Assembly: GCA_020073605.1 (NCBI GenBank)
Contig: JAIQEW010000004.1
Coordinates: 62,001-126,000, forward strand
Source: Terriglobia bacterium
Lineage (GTDB): Bacteria; Acidobacteriota; Terriglobia; Acidiferrales; UBA7541
DNA: 64,000 bases
Direction of reading: 5' to 3'
The translations under genes were made by a program, and so were the position numbers. Shown in pieces: positions 21,455 through 51,266 of the stretch. Below the pieces are notes generated by a model. That model searched no databases. It saw only the letters and a list, made by a program, of their open reading frames with translations, and was not told the origin of the DNA. Every line of letters begins with the position of its first letter. Position 1 is the stretch's first letter.

Positions 21455-23158
21455 GTGAACACGCCCACCAAAATAGTATTCACCTTGTGCCTGCTGTTCG
21501 GCCCTCAAGCTCTTTTCGCGCAGCAACAGCCAGCGGATCCGATCGTTACGGCCATGCGCCAGGAACTCGACCGCTCCATGCAGGACTTCAAGAAAACTTC
21601 CGTTCCGCCGTATTTTCTCTCCTACGAGCTTACTGACAATCGCGCGATCAACGTGTCTGCTGCTTTCGGGACACTGATTTCGACTTCCGATCGGACAACC
21701 AGAGTCCTTGACGTTGATCTGCGAGTCGGCGATTACAAACTGGACAGTACACATCCGTTGCGCCAGGAGACTTTTTCCGAGCCGCTGCAGGAGCTTGAGG
21801 AGAAGCGAAACATGCCGCTCGACGATGATCCCTTGGCATTGAAAGTGGCTCTCTGGCAAGCCACGGAAGGGCACTACAGAAGGGCGGTTGAGCGGCTGCA
21901 GCAGGTCCAGGCGAATGTGCAGGTTAAAGTCGCGCAGGAGGACCAGTCTCCGGATTTCTCCCACGAGAACCCTCACGTCTATTCGGAACCGATCGCAGGT
22001 TTCTCCGTGGATGAAAAAGCGTGGGAGCAGAGACTGCGCAATTTGACGAACCCCTTTGCGGAGCATAAGGAAATTCTGGACGCCAGCGCGCAGTTGGATG
22101 CTGAAATCGAGACCCGGCGGTATGTGAACAGCGATGGAACCGAACTCAGGATGTCGACTCCTTTCTACCGCCTCATCATCTCGGCCACGGCCAAGGCCGA
22201 CGACGGAATGGAACTGCCGCTGTATCAAACCTATATGTCTTTTCGCCCGGATGGGTTGCCGGATGAGGCCGCTCTCGCGGCCGACGTAAGCAAGATGATC
22301 GACATGCTCTTGGCGCTCACCAAGGCGCCGTTGGCCGAGCCTTATACGGGTCCTGCCATACTCTCTGGCCGCTCGAGCGCGGTCTTCTTTCATGAAATTT
22401 TTGGACATCGTGTCGAGGGCCAACGGCAGAAGAACGAGGACGACGCGCAGACGTTCAAGAGAAAAGTGAATCAGTCGGTGCTCCCCAATTTCCTCTCCGT
22501 CTACTCCGATCCGACGTTGCGGCAACTGAAGCACACGGAGTTGGTCGGGTACTATCCGTTTGACGATGAGGGCGTGCCGGCCCGGCGGGTCACGATTGTG
22601 CAGAACGGAGTTCTGAAGGAGTTCCTGATGTCGCGCGCCCTCATCACCGGCTTTGACCATTCGAACGGACATGGCCGCCGCCAGCAAGGTTTCCCGGTGG
22701 CAGCGCGGCAATCGAATCTGATCGTCGAATCCTCCAAGTCCGTTTCGCGGGGCGAACTCAAGAAGATGCTGATCGAGCAAATCAAGGCTGCGAAGAAGCC
22801 TTACGGACTGTTCTTTGACGATATCGAGGGTGGATTCACGTTTACCCAGCGAGTCGTGCCCAACGCATTCAATGTGCGGCCGACAGTTGTGTATCGCGTC
22901 TATCCGGACGGCCGGGAGGAGCTGGTCCGCGGCGTGGACCTGATCGGAACGCCTCTCACCTCGTTTAGCAAGATCGTCGCCGCGGACGATGACGTGGCGG
23001 TCTTCAACGGTGTTTGCGGAGCTGAATCGGGATGGGTGCCGGTCTCCGCGAGTGCGCCGGGGATGTTGATTTCGCAAATCGAAGTCCAGCGAAAAGAGAA
23101 ATCACAGGAGCGTGCGCCGCTGCTGCCCCCGCCGCCCGCCTCCGCCGGGAACAATTGA
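21455..23158 (+). CDS. Exported TldD-type zinc metallopeptidase
   Basis: 567-residue protein of the TldD/PmbA family (peptidase U62/M103). The zinc motif HEIFGHRVEG matches the family HExxxH. The C-terminus has the family signature (VCGAESGWVPVSASAPGMLIS). GTG 21455 is the chosen start: AGGAAAAG precedes it and the product opens with a signal peptide (IVFTLCLLFGPQALFAQQ). E. coli TldD is cytoplasmic and unfolds and degrades peptides such as microcin precursors and antitoxins together with TldE. Export makes this pair unusual. The catalytic-site-less partner starts three bases after the stop, so the two are probably co-translated. Confidence 0.88.
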   Translation: MNTPTKIVFTLCLLFGPQALFAQQQPADPIVTAMRQELDRSMQDFKKTSVPPYFLSYELTDNRAINVSAAFGTLISTSDRTTRVLDVDLRVGDYKLDSTHPLRQETFSEPLQELEEKRNMPLDDDPLALKVALWQATEGHYRRAVERLQQVQANVQVKVAQEDQSPDFSHENPHVYSEPIAGFSVDEKAWEQRLRNLTNPFAEHKEILDASAQLDAEIETRRYVNSDGTELRMSTPFYRLIISATAKADDGMELPLYQTYMSFRPDGLPDEAALAADVSKMIDMLLALTKAPLAEPYTGPAILSGRSSAVFFHEIFGHRVEGQRQKNEDDAQTFKRKVNQSVLPNFLSVYSDPTLRQLKHTELVGYYPFDDEGVPARRVTIVQNGVLKEFLMSRALITGFDHSNGHGRRQQGFPVAARQSNLIVESSKSVSRGELKKMLIEQIKAAKKPYGLFFDDIEGGFTFTQRVVPNAFNVRPTVVYRVYPDGREELVRGVDLIGTPLTSFSKIVAADDDVAVFNGVCGAESGWVPVSASAPGMLISQIEVQRKEKSQERAPLLPPPPASAGNN

Positions 23159-23160
23159 GC

Positions 23161-24957
23161 ATGGTTTTCAGAGGGACAACTGTGCGCTCGAAATGGGTCT
23201 TCGTGGCCTGGGCAATCCTTGCCGCACCACTCTTGCAGGCCCAACGCCAGGAAGATGTGATCATGCGCGCGATGAAGGATGAGTTGGCTCGCTCCATGAG
23301 CCAGTTGCAGCTTCCGCAGATGGAGAAGCCATATTTTCTTGCGTACCGCGTGCAGGACATCACGCAACACGAGATATCCGCGACGCTGGGGAGCCTGACT
23401 TCCAGCAGCGGACCTCCCGTTCGTAGTCGGCTGATCGGCGTGGAACTTCGGGTCGGCGACTACAGCCTCGACAACACCAACTTCTTCTCCATGCGCAGTT
23501 TTTCCGGCGGAGCCATGTTCGGTGGCATTGAGCAAGGCTCTCTGGACGACAACTATGCGCAGATCCGGCGTGAATTTTGGCTCACGACGGACAAAGAATA
23601 CAAACAGGCGCTGGAGAATCTGTCCGCGAAGAGAGCGGCGCTAAAGGGGCGAGGTGGCAACGAGAATATTCCCGACTTCAGTAAAGAAACGCCCGTCACG
23701 GTAAACGAACCTTCCGCCGCAGTCGTTACACCTAATCTCGGCGAGCTCGAATCGACCGCGCGAGACCTTTCAACCGTCTTCCGATCTGCTCCGGAAATCG
23801 ACAGGTCCTCCGTCGCGATTCGATATAGCGACGTCTATACGCGATACGTGAACAGTGAGGGCACGTCGTTTACCCGCTCCGAGCCGCTGATCAAGCTGGA
23901 AGTGACCGCGCAGACGCAGGCGGCGGACGGCTTGCCGATCTCGGATTCGTTTGAGGTCTATGTCCGTAACCCCGCGGAGATGCCTTCCAGAGACGCGTTG
24001 CGCGCGCGCGTCCAACAAATGTCTGCGTCGATCGTGAAACTTCGCTCGGCGTCTTCGCTCGATCGCTACAACGGCCCAGTCTTGTTCGAGGGAGCAGCCG
24101 CGGGCGAGATTTTCCTTCAGCAATTTGGCTCGCGGCTGGCCACGGCGCGAACTCCGGCGAGCGATAACCCGCAATTCGAGATGGTGTTCGATCAGATGTT
24201 GGATCGCCTTGGCGGTCCTCCGCTGCAGGACAAAGTCGGCGCGCGTATCCTCCCGAGCTTCATCTCGGTGCGGGATAATCCCTCGCAAGCCACCTTCAAC
24301 GGGGTCGCTTTGCTTGGGAGTTCGCCCGTGGACGATGACGGCGTCAAGACGCGGGAAACGGTCCTTGTAGATCGCGGCGTTCTCAAGAACCTACTTGCAT
24401 CGCGAGTCCCGGTTCGCGGCATCCTGCAGAGCACCGGGAGCCGCCGCGGCTGGGGGGCTCTCCCCAGCAACATCTTTGTCACTTCCGAGAAGACGATGCC
24501 AGCCGATGAACTGAGAAAAGAGTTGCTACGCCTCGCAAAGGAAAGAGGACTGGACTACGCCCTTGTGGTTCGAAGGGTCGGAGCGGGATCCCAGGAGTCT
24601 CTCCTTGAGATGGCCAGACAGATGGCGTCCGCGCAGAATAACTCTCAATCTATTCCGGAAGTGTACAAGCTCTATTCTGACGGACATGAGGAGCCTCTCA
24701 GGGGTGTGCGCATTTCAGACTTGCCTGCGGAGTCGTTCAAGGAGATCGTCGCGACGGGAGGCAGTCCGGTGCTCTATAGTGACGAACTCATGCCGCGTTT
24801 GAATTCCCTGTTGTCCATGGGGCTTTCTTCCGGAGGCAACTTGCCGGTGGTTTCCTGCGTAAGCCCCGCACTGCTCTTTGAAGAAGTTTCCTTCGCGAAA
24901 AGCGAAGGCCCGTTTCCACCGACGCCCGTATCGCCCTCACCGCTTGCGCAAAAATGA
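23161..24957 (+). CDS. Exported TldE/PmbA-like partner lacking the zinc motif
   Basis: 598-residue paralogue of the preceding gene with its own signal peptide (WVFVAWAILAAPLLQAQ). Where TldD has HEIFGH, this protein reads GEIFLQQFGSRL, with no HExxxH. This is the situation in TldE/PmbA, which supports TldD in a heterodimer. ATG 23161 starts just after the upstream stop; GTG 23182 is an alternative. The C-terminus is extended and divergent. The adjacent order, matched length and loss of ligands fit a dedicated periplasmic TldD/TldE complex. Substrates are unknown. Confidence 0.85.
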   Translation: MVFRGTTVRSKWVFVAWAILAAPLLQAQRQEDVIMRAMKDELARSMSQLQLPQMEKPYFLAYRVQDITQHEISATLGSLTSSSGPPVRSRLIGVELRVGDYSLDNTNFFSMRSFSGGAMFGGIEQGSLDDNYAQIRREFWLTTDKEYKQALENLSAKRAALKGRGGNENIPDFSKETPVTVNEPSAAVVTPNLGELESTARDLSTVFRSAPEIDRSSVAIRYSDVYTRYVNSEGTSFTRSEPLIKLEVTAQTQAADGLPISDSFEVYVRNPAEMPSRDALRARVQQMSASIVKLRSASSLDRYNGPVLFEGAAAGEIFLQQFGSRLATARTPASDNPQFEMVFDQMLDRLGGPPLQDKVGARILPSFISVRDNPSQATFNGVALLGSSPVDDDGVKTRETVLVDRGVLKNLLASRVPVRGILQSTGSRRGWGALPSNIFVTSEKTMPADELRKELLRLAKERGLDYALVVRRVGAGSQESLLEMARQMASAQNNSQSIPEVYKLYSDGHEEPLRGVRISDLPAESFKEIVATGGSPVLYSDELMPRLNSLLSMGLSSGGNLPVVSCVSPALLFEEVSFAKSEGPFPPTPVSPSPLAQK

Positions 24958-29202: not shown

Positions 29203-30537
29203 TCATCGTCCGGACCACGGGTGTTGAGCCGCAAATTCGCGGATTACCTGAGAAAGAGTTAGCGCGCTTCGCTCGACCACGCCGTACGTCACGCGCACCA
29301 CGGGCTGCGAAATCTGAATGATCCGCGCGAGATCGATCGGAGTCGCGACCACGACGGCATCGCAAGGGGTCCGGCGAATCGTTTCCTCGAGTTCGGCGAG
29401 CTGTTTTTTGCCGTAGCCCATCGCCGGAAGCAGAAGCCCGATGCGGGTGAAATGCGCGAAGACTTCGCGCAGGCTTCCCACCGCATATGGCCTGGGGTCT
29501 ACCTGTTCCGCCACGCCCGCCTGGCGGGCAGCGACCACGCCCGCTCCGTAAGCCATCTGGCCATGAGTCAGCGTCGGACCGTCTTCAATCACCAGGACTC
29601 GCGCGCCGCGAAGCCGTTCCGGATGATCCACCGAGATGCGAGAAAATGTTTCGATGACGCGCGCTTTGGGGTTGCGCTCGCGCGCGTCGCGCCGGATGGT
29701 TTCGACATCTGCCTCGAGAGCGGAATCGACTTTGTTGATCACGATTACGCCGGCCCGGAGAAAGTTGACTTCGCCGGGGTGGTACAGCAATTCATGCCCG
29801 GCGCGATGCGGATCGGCGACCACGATTTCGAGGTCGGAATGGAAGAAAGGAGTGTCATTGTTACCTCCATCCCAAACGATGACTCCGGCTTCTTTCTCCG
29901 CCTCGTCCAGAATGTTTTTGTAATCCACGCCCGCATAGACAACCGTCCCGTCACGAAGATGAGGTTCGTATTCCTCGCGCTCTTCGATCGTGCACTCGTG
30001 CTTATCGAGATCGGCAAACGCGGCAAACCGCTGGCAGGCCTGGCGGGCGAGGTCACCGTAGGGCATCGGATGCCGGACGACCACCGGTCGCGCGCCCATT
30101 TCCTTCAGCAATTCGACGACGCGGCGAGAAACGGGAGTTTTGCCGCAGCCTGTGCGCACGGCACAAATGGACACGACCGGCCGGCGAGATTGCAACATCG
30201 TGCGATCCGCACCCAGCAACAAGAAATCACAGCCTGCAGCGATCGCGCGCGAGGCGAGGTCCATCACCTGATTGTGAGAAAGGTCGCTATAGGAGAGCAC
30301 GGCCGTATCAACCTTCTCTTTCACGATGAGCTGTTCCAGTTGCTCCTCGGGCACGATGGGAATGCCGTCGGGATAGAGCGGCCCGGAGAGTTCGGGAGGA
30401 TAGCGGCGGCCGGAAATGTCGGGAATCTGCGCGGCGGTGAAGGCGACCACTCGCGATTCCCGGTCTTGGCGGAAACAGACGTTGAAGTTGTGGAAGTCGC
30501 GGCCCGCTGCACCAAGGATGGCAATGCGACGCTGCAT
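29203..30537 (-). CDS. Cyclic 2,3-diphosphoglycerate synthase-like P-loop protein
   Basis: 444-residue protein resembling archaeal cyclic 2,3-diphosphoglycerate synthetase (about 460 residues), which cyclises 2,3-bisphosphoglycerate with ATP. It has an N-terminal Rossmann-like domain (RIAILGAAGRDFHNFN) and a P-loop CAVRTGCGKTPVSR, then VIVWDGGNNDTPF and VIVINKVDSA, typical of P-loop NTPases. ATG 30537 has AGGAGG five bases upstream. Bacterial homologues are often annotated simply as GTPases, and product formation in bacteria is poorly documented, so the function is tentative. It is divergent from the small HhH protein gene. Confidence 0.75.
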   Translation of the reverse strand: MQRRIAILGAAGRDFHNFNVCFRQDRESRVVAFTAAQIPDISGRRYPPELSGPLYPDGIPIVPEEQLEQLIVKEKVDTAVLSYSDLSHNQVMDLASRAIAAGCDFLLLGADRTMLQSRRPVVSICAVRTGCGKTPVSRRVVELLKEMGARPVVVRHPMPYGDLARQACQRFAAFADLDKHECTIEEREEYEPHLRDGTVVYAGVDYKNILDEAEKEAGVIVWDGGNNDTPFFHSDLEIVVADPHRAGHELLYHPGEVNFLRAGVIVINKVDSALEADVETIRRDARERNPKARVIETFSRISVDHPERLRGARVLVIEDGPTLTHGQMAYGAGVVAARQAGVAEQVDPRPYAVGSLREVFAHFTRIGLLLPAMGYGKKQLAELEETIRRTPCDAVVVATPIDLARIIQISQPVVRVTYGVVERSALTLSQVIREFAAQHPWSGR

Positions 30538-30642
30538 ATGAGCCTCCTGAACGGATCGCCTGTCTTGCGTGATATACACTACTGCGTTCGTCCGCAGAAG
30601 AATCACATAATCCGTCTAGGCGCGGACCGGGAACACCCCACA

Positions 30643-45741: not shown

Positions 45742-48700
45742 CTATGGATTTTTGCTGAGCTTGCGGAAGTACTCGGCCACCGCGTCCTGATAGCCGGATG
45801 GCACGGTGAGCGGATCGCTGCTGCGGACCTGTCCCGACTGCTTCCCGTCGGCTGCGCGCTGCAACTGCAGCTCGAGCTTGTCCACGTCATTGAGCACTTG
45901 CGTGTGGAGTTGCTCGACGAGCTCCGGATTTCCCGGAAATCGTTTCGGGTCCAGCCGCTGCATCTCCCGGATGAGCTCCTCGACCTGGCGCAGAGTCTCG
46001 GGATCGGACTGCACGGATTCGCGAAGCTGGTTCAAGTCGCCCAGACTCTGTTGATACGTGCGTTCGGGATCGTAGGGCGCAGGAGACGAATTCGGATCGG
46101 CCGCCCTCCGTCCCTCTGTTGAGTTGTTGCCTGTGTCAATCCACCAGTTGTTGCGGCCGCCGCCGGCGTAGCCGCCGCGATTGCCGCCGTACGCACCGTT
46201 GTCATCGACTTGCGCTCCGGGACCTTGTTGCCCGCCGGCCCCGCCCTGCTGTCCGGCTTGCGCGCTCTGGTTCTGCCGGCCTTGCCGTCCGCCCGGTGCA
46301 TTGCGATCGCCGAAGGCGCGGTCGAGCGATTCGAGCCGGTTGCGCAAACGCCCCACCTGATCGAGCGCGCTTTCCGAATTCGGCTGCTCGCCAGTTCCCA
46401 GCGCCTGCTGAGCCTGGCGAATTTGCTTGCCAAGCCGGTCGAGTCCGGAACTGATCGCGGATTCTCCGGAATTGGGATCGGGATAGACGCCGCGGCGCAG
46501 GCGGTCCGCGCCTCGCTGAATGCGGGTTTGCAGGTCCGACTCATCCAATTGGCCGAGCGCATCCCGCAACGCGGATGCCGAGGGGCGATTCGTGGGAGCC
46601 AGATCGCGCGCGGCATCGCGCATGTTCTTTTCAAGGCGCGCGAGATCGTCGGCGAGACGCTGGCGATCTTCCGCCAGCCTGCTCTGCTCCTCATATCTAT
46701 TTTGAGGATTGTCCGAGGAGTCCTCTGAATCTTGCTGCCCGAAAAAGCGGCGAGTCCGATCGACCTGCTCGCCGTGTTCCTTCGAGATCCGATCGGCTTC
46801 GGAGGCCATCGAGTTCAGGCGCTCTGAAGCAGCCTGGTGCTGCATACCGCTCAGCAAATTCTGCGCCTCGCGCAATCGGTCGGCGGCGCGGCGGGCGTCG
46901 GCGTCATTCCTCTGCGGCGAAGCCGCGCGGCGCATATCGTCATTCGCCTGGCGGAGACGGTCGAGCGCTTGCCGGGCGCGCGAGTCGGAGCCGCCCTGCG
47001 AGCCGGACGCGCTTGGCTGACCCGAGCTGGATTGGCCGTTGGACGAGTTCGCTCCCTGCGGAGTGCTCTGCGCGAGCTGCTCGATCTGCCGCTGCAGCTC
47101 CTCGGCCTGGCGGCGCAACATCTCCTGCTGCCATCTCTGCTCGAAGGATTGGCCGTTGCCTGCGCGGCGCTGGTCCGCCAGTTCTTGCTGGCGCCGGGCC
47201 AATTCATCGAGCTTCTTGAGCGCCTCGTCGATCTCCTCGTTGCGCTGGCTTGCCGAATCAGCCGTCTGCTTTGTTTCGTACTGGTTTTTCTGCGTGTCCA
47301 GCTCGAGATCAAACAGGCTCGCCAGGTCGCGCCCGGCGCCGCCGACACCGCCTCCCCCTCGGTTGCCGAAAGCCACCTGAATCTGCCGGAAAGTAGCCTC
47401 GGCGCGCAGCAGGTGCTGGAGCGCCTTCTGCTCGTTCGGAATGGCATCGCTCCATTTTCGTTGCTGCAACTTTTCCGAAGCCGGGCCCATCGCCGCGGCG
47501 GCGGCGTTCATTTCCTGTTGGAAGCCGCTGAACTCCGCGTTCTCTTGCGTCAAGTCGCGCATCTGCAGGCGGCCGGCCAGCGAAAGCGCCTGTTCGCGCA
47601 GCTTTTCCTGCACGCCGGAAAGGAATTTCGCGTTCTGGACGGCCTTTTCCTGGGAAGCGCTTTTGTCGCTCGATTGTTTCCACGTGGCCGCGATGATCTC
47701 CTTTTCGCGCTGGGAAATCTCCTCCTGATTGCCTCCGCCGCCGGCTCCACCGCCCCCGCCACCGGATTGTTGAGACTGGGAGAATTCCCGCTCGAAAGGT
47801 TCGGCCTGAATGAAGAACATGTCCGTGCGCGACTCGGCGCGGGCATCTTTTGCCGTTGCGTACAGGCTCACGATATCGCCCGGGACCACGTGAAAATCTT
47901 CCAGAGAGATCGTGGCCGCGCCATCCGCCGTCTTTTCGCCCCTCTGCTTGAGCAGATTGACGCTTTGCTCCGCGCCGCCGTTGACGGAGTAGTGCAGCTG
48001 GAAGTCGTTGAGGCCAAACGGATCGTCGGCCTTCACGGAGACAGCGACTTCCTCAATCGGGCTGGCTTGGTAGTCGCGTCCGGGGCGTGCGATGGCGACG
48101 TTCGGCGGCTCCGCCTTGCTCGCCTCGATGAAGAAATCCTCGGAGACGCGCACGGGCTGCCCCTGGTCGACGGCGGCGATGTGGTACGCGCCGTCCTTTT
48201 CGATCCGGATGCTGCCTTTGTAGACGTTGGCCTCGCCGCCGGAGAGCTGAATCTCTGTCCGATCGTCGAGAACCAGGACGCCATCGCGCAGCGGCCGATC
48301 CGTCACGATCTCGAGGCCCGCGTCGGTGCCTTCAATCGCACGAAGATCGCCCCCGTGCTCGTCCACGGCGTTCTTCAATCCCGTCCACGCCGGGAAATGA
48401 TAGGTCACGCGGACCTGCTTGATGGAAGGCAAGTCGGCCACGCGGATATTGAAGTGGCGCGAGCGCAGGGCGCCCGCCTCGACATAGTATTCGACGCTTT
48501 CCGGCAGCCCGGCGAATACGAATTGGAAGCCGGAGCCGCCCGGTTGCGGCTGCATGTTGAGCTGTTCCCACTTCGACGTGCTTTGATAGCGGGCGTAGAG
48601 ACGAGCTCTGTCGGTCTGCAGGCCGATGGGTTGGGCGGTAACAAGTTCATCCGCATTGCGCCGCACCGTCACATCGCCGGGACTCACACGAATATCGTAA

Positions 48701-49251
48701 AAGGGAGCCACACCTTTGGGCGGACCTGCCCACAAGAGTGCGGCGCCGTATCCGAGAAAGCCCGGTCCGGCCAGAATCATCCAGAGAAGCACGGCGAGCG
48801 AAGCAGCGCCAACGCCTACGGACGCGAGCAGTGTTCGATTCGGAACAAGGCTCGCGGCTTCGGCCTGGCGAGCCACGGCAACGGTGTCCGCGGCCAGTAG
48901 ATCGAGAAAAGGCTCGTTCTCGTCGCGATCGCGCTCGGCAAAAGTGATCAGCCTCTGTTCGAATTGCGGAAATGCGCCTTCTGCCTTGCGCGCGGCCCAG
49001 CGGCGATTGAGTCTCCACAGGGGAATCCCGAGGCCGAAAGCCGCGCAGAAAACGAGCGTGAAAAGCAGAGCCAGGCGCGCTCCGGTCAGGCTGATCTTCG
49101 AGAACGCGAACAGGTTGATGATGAGGACCAGCACCAAGGTGGCCGCGAGCGCGGCCAAAATCAGGACGGCGGCTCCCCGAAGCGCCGTGCCCAGCCGTAT
49201 GCGCCGCTCCAGGCCTTCCAGGTAGGAGTTGAGCTGTTCGCGTGCGCTCAT
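45742..49251 (-). CDS. Large membrane-anchored coiled-coil protein, DUF4175-like
   Basis: 1169-residue protein. The N-terminus has transmembrane helices (~20-45, ~55-75 and ~140-165), then a beta-rich extracytoplasmic region (~190-500). A long Gln/Arg/Glu-rich helical region follows (many QQELADQ, LRRQAEELQRQ and DRLRQA segments), with low-complexity Gly/Gln/Ser-rich tracts and a C-terminal helical domain. This is the DUF4175 layout seen in Bat-like operons. ATG 49251 overlaps the upstream gene's stop and has GGGAGGAAG before it; longer frames are spurious. Role unknown; probably a scaffold or envelope protein working with the MoxR, DUF58 and VWA genes upstream. Confidence 0.8.
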   Translation of the reverse strand: MSAREQLNSYLEGLERRIRLGTALRGAAVLILAALAATLVLVLIINLFAFSKISLTGARLALLFTLVFCAAFGLGIPLWRLNRRWAARKAEGAFPQFEQRLITFAERDRDENEPFLDLLAADTVAVARQAEAASLVPNRTLLASVGVGAASLAVLLWMILAGPGFLGYGAALLWAGPPKGVAPFYDIRVSPGDVTVRRNADELVTAQPIGLQTDRARLYARYQSTSKWEQLNMQPQPGGSGFQFVFAGLPESVEYYVEAGALRSRHFNIRVADLPSIKQVRVTYHFPAWTGLKNAVDEHGGDLRAIEGTDAGLEIVTDRPLRDGVLVLDDRTEIQLSGGEANVYKGSIRIEKDGAYHIAAVDQGQPVRVSEDFFIEASKAEPPNVAIARPGRDYQASPIEEVAVSVKADDPFGLNDFQLHYSVNGGAEQSVNLLKQRGEKTADGAATISLEDFHVVPGDIVSLYATAKDARAESRTDMFFIQAEPFEREFSQSQQSGGGGGGAGGGGNQEEISQREKEIIAATWKQSSDKSASQEKAVQNAKFLSGVQEKLREQALSLAGRLQMRDLTQENAEFSGFQQEMNAAAAAMGPASEKLQQRKWSDAIPNEQKALQHLLRAEATFRQIQVAFGNRGGGGVGGAGRDLASLFDLELDTQKNQYETKQTADSASQRNEEIDEALKKLDELARRQQELADQRRAGNGQSFEQRWQQEMLRRQAEELQRQIEQLAQSTPQGANSSNGQSSSGQPSASGSQGGSDSRARQALDRLRQANDDMRRAASPQRNDADARRAADRLREAQNLLSGMQHQAASERLNSMASEADRISKEHGEQVDRTRRFFGQQDSEDSSDNPQNRYEEQSRLAEDRQRLADDLARLEKNMRDAARDLAPTNRPSASALRDALGQLDESDLQTRIQRGADRLRRGVYPDPNSGESAISSGLDRLGKQIRQAQQALGTGEQPNSESALDQVGRLRNRLESLDRAFGDRNAPGGRQGRQNQSAQAGQQGGAGGQQGPGAQVDDNGAYGGNRGGYAGGGRNNWWIDTGNNSTEGRRAADPNSSPAPYDPERTYQQSLGDLNQLRESVQSDPETLRQVEELIREMQRLDPKRFPGNPELVEQLHTQVLNDVDKLELQLQRAADGKQSGQVRSSDPLTVPSGYQDAVAEYFRKLSKNP

Positions 49252-51266
49252 TCTTCCTCCCTCTGCACCCCTAAGTATCGGCTGGCAAGCAGCGATTCCG
49301 CAACTGCCGCCGCCAACACCAGGAGCATCGCATACCACCAGAAGCTGTACGGCTTCGTTGGCTGTCGCACCGGCTCCCTTCCTGCGTTGGCAGCAGGCGG
49401 CGGTTCTTCCTTCGGTTTGCCGCTCCACAACGAGAGCACGTCGTCCGGAATTACGGCGAGATCGGATTCACGCCTGTCCGCGTTCACGCCGACGACATCC
49501 TGGCGGCCGTTGGCCAGGTGGAGTTCGTAGAAGCCCGCCTGCGTTAGCTGGTAAGCCGAAGCCGAGGTCGCTTCTTTCAAAGAAAGAGGCCGGCGGCCGG
49601 CGGGGTCGATCACTTCGACGCTCACGGCCTGTTCCTTGGCCGTCCTCAAATCGAGAAAGGAATCGACCGAGCGAGAACCGCCACGCCGCTCGGTGCCCGA
49701 AAGATAGCGGGCGGTCCGCTCGACGAACGGCACGAAAATCGGATGCAGCGGAAAATCATTCGTGAGATTGTCGAGTCCGGAGGCGAGCAGCAGCACGCGC
49801 CCCTCGCCGATTTTCTTGTCCAGCAGCAGCGGCGTCTGGTCCGTCAACCGGGCGATCACGCGTGAGTTCGCGGCGTCCACCGCCACTGCGTAATAGAATC
49901 TCACGCCGGCCCACTGCGCCACCTTCCCGGCAGCAGGAGACGAAGAGTCGGTCTCTCCCACGGTCATGAACCGCTCCGCTTCGCGCGAATAATAGTGAGA
50001 CCCGAGCGCGTTGTCGCCAAAGACGGGGATGCTTGAACGGCGGGCGGAAGAAGTTCCCGCTGCGATCAGCACGCCCCCGCCGCCGCGAACGTAACGCAGC
50101 AAGTCGTTCTCAAGGGACGAAGGGAGCGATGACACGTCGGAAAGGACAACGAAGGCGTAGGGAGAGAGCTGCGTATTGGCGGCACGCTCCACGCTGACGC
50201 TGTCCACGGCGAACGCCGATGCAGCCGCGGCTGCCAGGGCAGAGGCAAAGTAGACCGGCGACCGCGAGTCGCTCGCGTCGTGCACGAGCAACACCCGCTG
50301 CGGATCGAATCGCCCCACGGCGAACATGTATCCGTCGTCTGCGCGGAGGGGATCGGCCGAATCGATTCTCACTTCGCACCGGCTGAATCCATACGGCACA
50401 TCGAGCGACTGGAACTCCACGGATGCGCGTCCCCCGGCTGGCACGGCGACGCTGCGCGTGGCAATCGTCTTGCCGTTAACCACAAGCGACACGCTGCGGG
50501 TGGCGGCGGGAGTCCCATAACCAGCGACGACCGCTTGCACGTGCGCCTTCTTCATGTCCCAAACCTCGCCCGGAGCGTTCACGTCCTCAACTGCCCAATT
50601 CGGCACCGCGCTCTTCACAACCGGATGGAGAACGAGCGAGACGCCGTCCGGCAGGGCCATCTCCGCGAAGTTCGCCGGCATGTCGGATTTCTGCATGTCG
50701 CTGAATACGTGAAGTTCGACGGGAGCTCGAACATTCTGACCAATCGACCGCACGGCGTGCGCCAACTCGCCCAGGCTGCCGCGCGAGTCGCCGGGGACGA
50801 TGCTTTCCACCGCGGCGCGCAGTGTCGCGGAATCCTCGATCGGCTGGGTCAGCACGCTTACTTGGGAGCCGAATGCCACAATCTGCGCGCGCTCCGCAGG
50901 GTTTCGATCGGCGAGAAGGGAAAGCGCATCGCGCTTCGCGTCCGCCAGCCGCGAACCGGCGCGCATGCTGAATGAGTTGTCGATGGCGAGGAGCAGAAGC
51001 TTGTCACCGGACGCGCTTGCGACCGGCCGGTTGATATAGGGGCTTGCGAAGGCGAGTGCCAGCAACGCAAGAAGGGCGAGACGCAGGGAAAGCAGCAGAA
51101 GGTAACGCAGACGGCGATGCCGAATCGAGCTTTGCGTGCGGTGCTCGACGAACATGAGCGAGCTGAACGGCTGCGGAGTGGTGGTGTGGCGGCGCAGCAA
51201 GTGAAGGTAGATCGGAATGCCTACCGCCACCGCTCCGGCCAGAAACCAAGGAGAAAGGAATCCCAT
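49248..51266 (-). CDS. BatA-like membrane protein with VWA domain
   Basis: 672-residue protein. The BatA N-terminus has two helices (LSPWFLAGAVAVGIPIYLHLLRRHT... and LLLLSLRLALLALLALAF). A von Willebrand A domain follows (LLLLAIDNSFSM, MIDAS D-x-S-x-S with Thr/Asp downstream) and a further region with a glutamine-amidotransferase-like fold (VRGGGGVLIAAG). A C-terminal transmembrane helix ends it. ATG 51266 overlaps the upstream TGA (TGATG) with GGGGAGG upstream, indicating coupled translation. BatA-type proteins work with MoxR ATPases and DUF58 proteins in envelope maintenance or stress tolerance. Confidence 0.82.
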   Translation of the reverse strand: MGFLSPWFLAGAVAVGIPIYLHLLRRHTTTPQPFSSLMFVEHRTQSSIRHRRLRYLLLLSLRLALLALLALAFASPYINRPVASASGDKLLLLAIDNSFSMRAGSRLADAKRDALSLLADRNPAERAQIVAFGSQVSVLTQPIEDSATLRAAVESIVPGDSRGSLGELAHAVRSIGQNVRAPVELHVFSDMQKSDMPANFAEMALPDGVSLVLHPVVKSAVPNWAVEDVNAPGEVWDMKKAHVQAVVAGYGTPAATRSVSLVVNGKTIATRSVAVPAGGRASVEFQSLDVPYGFSRCEVRIDSADPLRADDGYMFAVGRFDPQRVLLVHDASDSRSPVYFASALAAAAASAFAVDSVSVERAANTQLSPYAFVVLSDVSSLPSSLENDLLRYVRGGGGVLIAAGTSSARRSSIPVFGDNALGSHYYSREAERFMTVGETDSSSPAAGKVAQWAGVRFYYAVAVDAANSRVIARLTDQTPLLLDKKIGEGRVLLLASGLDNLTNDFPLHPIFVPFVERTARYLSGTERRGGSRSVDSFLDLRTAKEQAVSVEVIDPAGRRPLSLKEATSASAYQLTQAGFYELHLANGRQDVVGVNADRRESDLAVIPDDVLSLWSGKPKEEPPPAANAGREPVRQPTKPYSFWWYAMLLVLAAAVAESLLASRYLGVQREEE

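Follow-up and report, generated by a model that had tools for sequence, protein, structure and literature searches.

Two adjacent genes encoding a TldD-like and a TldE-like protein lie on a stretch of 64,000 nucleotides from a Terriglobia bacterium (contig JAIQEW010000004.1), referred to below as the window (Table 1). The tldD-like gene, encoding the D chain, opens with a GTG codon at 21455, immediately preceded on its 5' side by the purine-rich stretch caggaaaagagcGTG, and its stop codon occupies 23156-23158. Only 2 bases separate it from the tldE-like gene, encoding the E chain, which starts with the ATG at 23161 and whose stop codon ends at 24957. An alternative GTG start is found a few codons into the tldE-like gene (VRSKW..., after agaggga) and leaves the signal peptide intact. 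The Pfam profile PF19289 (PmbA/TldD C-terminal domain, cut-off 22) matches the first protein with 102.2 bits (E-value 3e-29) and the second with 58.8 bits (E-value 5.6e-16). The profile of the central domain, PF19290, gives the first protein 23.9 bits for a cut-off of 20.9 (E-value 6e-5), and the second protein is not among its matches. At an E-value of 0.001, neither protein matches the Pfam profile of the PmbA/TldD N-terminal domain, which we take to be PF01523. Among solved structures, the first protein is closest to Escherichia coli TldD (5nj5, 7.2e-14) and the second weakly matches Thermotoga PmbA (1vl4, 6.4e-4). Unlike E. coli TldD/TldE, the pair lies far below the NCBIfam cut-offs for the TldD and PmbA equivalogs, with 44.6 of 513 bits for the TldD equivalog NF008006 and 82.1 of 635 bits for NF040952. 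By these profile scores, both proteins are members of the PF19289 superfamily, yet the pair is no TldD equivalog.

Table 1. Positions of the two genes and of their features in the window
Feature	Positions	Strand	Basis
tldD-like gene, catalytic subunit, 567 amino acids (aa)	21455..23158	+	PF19289, PF19290 and E. coli TldD 5nj5 matches
Putative Sec signal peptide of the tldD-like protein, ~22 aa, predicted cut between ...ALFA and QQQ	21455..21520	+	own criteria; signal-like L009-L013 N-termini
HEIFGH (HExxxH) metal-binding motif	22391..22408	+	aligned with E. coli TldD; 34/34 long D
Codon of the putative third zinc ligand, Cys of NGVCGAESG	23015..23017	+	aligned with the E. coli Cys454 region
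tldE-like gene, inactive partner, 598 aa	23161..24957	+	PF19289; HExxxH replaced; PmbA/TldE-like N-domain
Putative Sec signal peptide of the tldE-like protein, ~27 aa, predicted cut between ...LLQA and QRQ	23161..23241	+	own criteria

The reference system is E. coli TldD/TldE (PmbA; MEROPS M103, PDB 5nj5), in which, as in the window, two homologous chains share the PF19289 C-terminal domain and only one carries HExxxH and a distal Cys. In E. coli TldD the metal is bound by His262, His267 and Cys454, and activity requires both chains (passages of PMC5810440). The HEIFGH of the first window protein aligns with E. coli HEAVGH and its VCGAE with the Cys454 region. In the second protein, IFLQQFG(S) stands in the place of HExxxH and the distal Cys is also gone. 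A first-pass annotation, made from the window sequence alone, had placed the pair at 21455-24957 and had read HEIFGH as kept in the first protein and lost in the second; these coordinates proved correct when checked and the alignment agrees with the reading of the motif. HExxxH and the Cys are present in all 34 aligned D chains of the window's type, called long hereafter, and the long E chains lack HExxxH. In two ordinary TldD proteins (L113 and L115) an Asp replaces the Cys ligand (DGK), a replacement also noted for Gemmatimonas TldD (passages of PMC5810440). The window chains differ from those of E. coli by ~100 additional residues, by an N-domain that can barely be aligned and by signals for the general secretory (Sec) pathway on both, and the adjacency of their genes contrasts with the unlinked E. 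coli tldD and tldE.

The D chain begins with MNTPTKIVFTLCLLFGPQALFA followed by QQQ, and the N-terminal stretch of the E chain ends with VRSKWVFVAWAILAAPLLQA followed by QRQ. In both N-termini, a basic n-region is followed by a hydrophobic core, with a small-x-small site ahead of the Q. Custom criteria were used to extend this reading to the related pairs: a hydrophobic core of 10 residues, a net positive charge before it and a small-x-small site after it, taking any start codon 14-75 aa ahead of a conserved anchor. Internal start codons were submitted to the same test as a control. Both window proteins pass, and so do 38/40 long D and 39/40 long E among the related pairs, against 4/16 ordinary TldD, 0/28 ordinary TldE and 17/1895 internal start codons. 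The failing relatives are the D chain of L105 and both chains of L111, whose E chain appears by eye to bear a signal of the twin-arginine translocation (Tat) type. The signal peptides assigned to both proteins by the first-pass annotation are borne out by these custom criteria. In addition, the N-termini of L009-L013 are divergent in their letters with hydrophobicity maintained. The possibility that the pair is an ordinary cytoplasmic TldD/TldE, its hydrophobic N-termini arising from misread start codons, appears very improbable: the few members devoid of signals (the D chains of L105 and L111) would fit it, but the contrast between the long chains and ordinary TldE and the hydrophobicity maintained despite divergence argue against it. 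It is also unlikely that the N-terminal hydrophobic stretch stays uncut and anchors the pair in the inner membrane on its periplasmic side. Signal cleavage is only predicted and the D chains of L096 and L100 have, by eye, a Cys after a lipobox-like stretch, whereas the window pair, like its near relatives, has a small-x-small site right before the Q.

An exported TldD is in itself nothing new; what marks the lineage of the window pair is the presence of Sec signals on both chains. Tat signals were surveyed in 16 ordinary TldD of one phylum and in one Parabacteroides pair. The four ordinary TldD passing the signal criteria are all Tat-like (RRxF) and their adjacent partners have no signal. Ordinary TldD with a Tat-like RRxF beside a signal-less TldE were observed at L029, L031, L034, L115 and L118 (2464-5317). 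In Parabacteroides distasonis, the TldD-related protein WP_010183233.1 begins with MNINRRDFIK and its partner WP_211744342.1 is without signal. The Parabacteroides pair and those of L029, L031, L034 and L115 resemble the window pair by the export signal and the adjacent TldE-type gene, but they are of ordinary size and carry the signal on D only; in such systems the dead partner may leave the cell folded together with the Tat-signal TldD. The acidobacterial Tat-signal TldD fall outside the clade of long proteins described below (the Parabacteroides pair is not in the tree). Literature searches, mostly at title level, found no paper title on exported TldD/TldE. A TldD listed in a Leptospira exoproteome (passages of PMC5881292) was reported alongside plainly cytoplasmic proteins and was not taken as evidence of export.

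The genome of the window (G000) contains eight PF19289 genes arranged as four adjacent pairs. Three are long pairs (C20, which is the window pair, C21 and C29) and one is an ordinary signal-less pair (C23, locus L014). Like the window pair, the latter consists of adjacent D and E genes with a complete metal site in D (here HESIGH plus the Cys), but its products are of 486 and 450 aa and belong to another branch of the tree. A profile of long D gives matches at an E-value of 1e-60 or better in 46/297 genomes across the phylum (23/167 genera), and at 1e-30 or better in 60/61 genomes of the window's family, covering 13/13 genera. At least two matches at 1e-60 are found in 44 of the 46 genomes; G119 has an E gene just downstream, and G033 is the only one of the 46 with a lone D. 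The D gene precedes the E gene on the same strand in 38/38 fetched loci holding both, frequently with a 4-base overlap, and G051 has both genes on different contigs. A scan of genome contigs with patterns of one protein retrieved five loci, all acidobacterial by their titles (Acidobacteria, Acidobacterium or Candidatus Acidiferrales). Among phages and plasmids no match reached 80% coverage of the query, and viral contigs gave none. Sampling outside the phylum is thin and restriction to the phylum is consequently not claimed. Overall, the window pair is a genuine exported variant of TldD/TldE and is well conserved.

The phylogeny of long and ordinary chains was reconstructed from an alignment of 111 rows sampled from one phylum and E. 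coli, the loci L081, L094, L098, L099, L103, L104, L106 and L110 being left out. Removal of 20 near-duplicates gave 91 rows and 544 columns for the first tree, in which the long D and E chains group together as a single clade (Shimodaira-Hasegawa-like approximate likelihood ratio test, SH-aLRT, 100), separate from the ordinary ones. Trees grouping D with D and E with E, a hypothesis framed after the first tree was known, were then compared by the approximately unbiased test (p-AU). They are 48 log units worse for the C-domain of 86 rows (p-AU 0.034; L036_cD, L045_cD, L105_lD, L102_lD and L102_lE also left out). With 51 hand-chosen rows, they are 118 log units worse over the full length (p-AU 1.9e-5) and 66 log units worse for the C-domain (p-AU 1.7e-4), the metal-site columns being removed in this last test only. 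Profile comparisons agree with the trees: the N-domains of the long D and E chains match each other at an E-value of 4e-68 over 265 columns, against 3.6e-5 over just 70 columns for the N-domains of long and ordinary D. The C-domain profiles of long D and ordinary D match at 9.4e-24.

Since the exported D and E are sister to each other and the split trees are rejected, the pairing probably re-evolved after a second duplication. The D/E duplication of the exported lineage is apparently separate from that of E. coli and, on the sequence trees, the active/dead pairing probably arose twice, independently of E. coli TldD/TldE. An active common ancestor would imply at least two losses of the metal site. 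The alternative of one ancient D/E duplication, with exported D and E being orthologues of TldD and TldE made alike by long-branch attraction or shared export adaptation, is rather unlikely. The stem of the lineage is long (1.8 changes per column) and could falsely pull long D and long E together, and the first C-domain test is modest, but the two later tests reject this topology far more strongly, the second of them independently of the N-domain and metal-site columns. The first-pass annotation had described the heterodimer design as kept in an exported version and had called for a phylogeny versus cytoplasmic TldD/PmbA. An exported active/inactive pair in a separate lineage is well supported, with its signals, metal site and gene order maintained; inheritance from the ordinary D/E duplication is not supported. 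Taken as a whole, a scenario is slightly favored in which a TldD-like ancestor was exported and duplicated and one copy again lost the metal site, giving a periplasmic protease with a rebuilt N-domain, a different clamp and an independent pairing. The lone D of G033 (L105, 4968-6620) is of the long type (HEAVGHRLE, WCG) and has neither a signal peptide nor a long E; its branch, a long one, departs close to the base of the long clade, and it possibly resembles the ancestor predating the second duplication.

We consider it probable that the pair is exported by Sec and works in the periplasm as a TldD/TldE-like heterodimeric zinc peptidase on unfolded peptides. One bicistron would produce both chains; these would be exported unfolded via Sec, lose their signals to signal peptidase and fold outside the cytoplasm. 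By analogy with the E. coli model, D and E would then pair into a hollow shell, the metal site of D (His, His, Cys) facing the cavity and the catalytically dead E completing the shell. Unfolded or linear peptides would enter through a narrow pore and be trimmed, and the main role may be the clearance or scavenging of periplasmic peptides. Judged by sequence, the window pair works like TldD/TldE. Structure predictions were built from six sequences: from residue 31, the N-domain of the E model matches the PmbA/TldE fold 3qtd_A (Z 11.2, root-mean-square deviation 3.7, 212 aligned residues), and unrelated structures score Z of at most 5.9 in this search, run on a model of mean predicted local distance difference test (pLDDT) 47.6. 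The search was made with the E model and is informative for its N-domain, the D model being too poor.

Several points, besides the long stem, weigh against this interpretation. The signal criteria were fixed only after the N-termini had been viewed. The models are poor, with mean pLDDT of 36.6 for D and 47.6 for E, and the shell, the pore and the contact between the chains are taken over from the E. coli enzyme. In E. coli TldD, Lys456 and Asp272 tether the active-site clamp (passages of PMC5810440). Their equivalents are retained in all but 2 of 17 ordinary D including E. coli, whereas that of Lys456 is present in 0/34 long D (Ala in 33) and that of Asp272 in 1/34; Glu270 has its equivalent in 34/34. 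With these clamp residues lost, active-site geometry or substrate may differ from E. coli. With the metal ligands retained, the combined loss of the two residues points to a rebuilt clamp and not to decay. Finally, the window pair has no conserved neighbor, and none is common to it and L009-L013. It is flanked upstream by a Gfo/Idh/MocA oxidoreductase and downstream by a LigB-like protein, both on the opposite strand, and no substrate hint is found among the genes adjoining the pair or its five nearest relatives.

The divergence of the clamp and N-domain from E. coli TldD would fit an amide hydrolase (N-deacetylase) acting outside the cytoplasm on small molecules or cell-envelope compounds, with no peptidase activity. 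N-deacetylases are included in the family according to the title of a review cited in PMC10885120. This reading is quite unlikely, for the metal site is as in the peptidases and no biosynthetic cluster surrounds the window pair. An exported processing enzyme maturing one specific exported peptide, such as a modified peptide natural product or a cofactor precursor, appears fairly unlikely. E. coli TldD/E removes leader peptides (passages of PMC10885120 and PMC5810440) and tldD is discussed alongside pyrroloquinoline quinone (PQQ) in published work. In the window genome, a second long pair (C29; L015, 771-10138) lies ~3 kb from pqqB and pqqE, but a TonB receptor gene on the opposite strand separates pqqB from this pair. 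A general link with PQQ was rejected, as pqqB/E are near this one examined locus only. The lack of a neighbor shared by the window pair and L009-L013 also disfavors a dedicated processing role, and precursors are generally modified in the cytoplasm. Clearance or scavenging by the exported peptidase is preferred over the maturation of a single product because the long pair is near-universal in the family, reaches three copies in the window genome, lacks a constant partner gene and is accompanied by M16 peptidase genes in one branch.

TldD/TldE is widespread and its normal role is unclear (passages of PMC5810440). An exported branch present in 60/61 genomes of one family offers a setting free of cytosolic proteases in which TldD/TldE function could be probed. 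If the dead subunit did evolve twice, TldD-family enzymes would need a dead partner strongly enough for one to arise again, and comparison of the two would reveal the properties required of it, be it shell closure, pore gating or substrate holding. For such proteins, the TldD/PmbA annotation and the cytoplasmic role assumed with it are unsafe.

Elsewhere in the window, the products of 29203-30606 (467 aa) and 45742-49428 (1228 aa) have no Pfam match at an E-value of 1e-5, nor does the former have an NCBIfam match at 1e-10. M16 peptidase genes are located within ~5 kb of a paralogous exported pair in L016, L107 and L109, and farther away in L103. The window genome has five M16 matches in total, two of them near a paralogous pair. 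At L109, the D and E genes form an uninterrupted same-strand run with two M16 genes.

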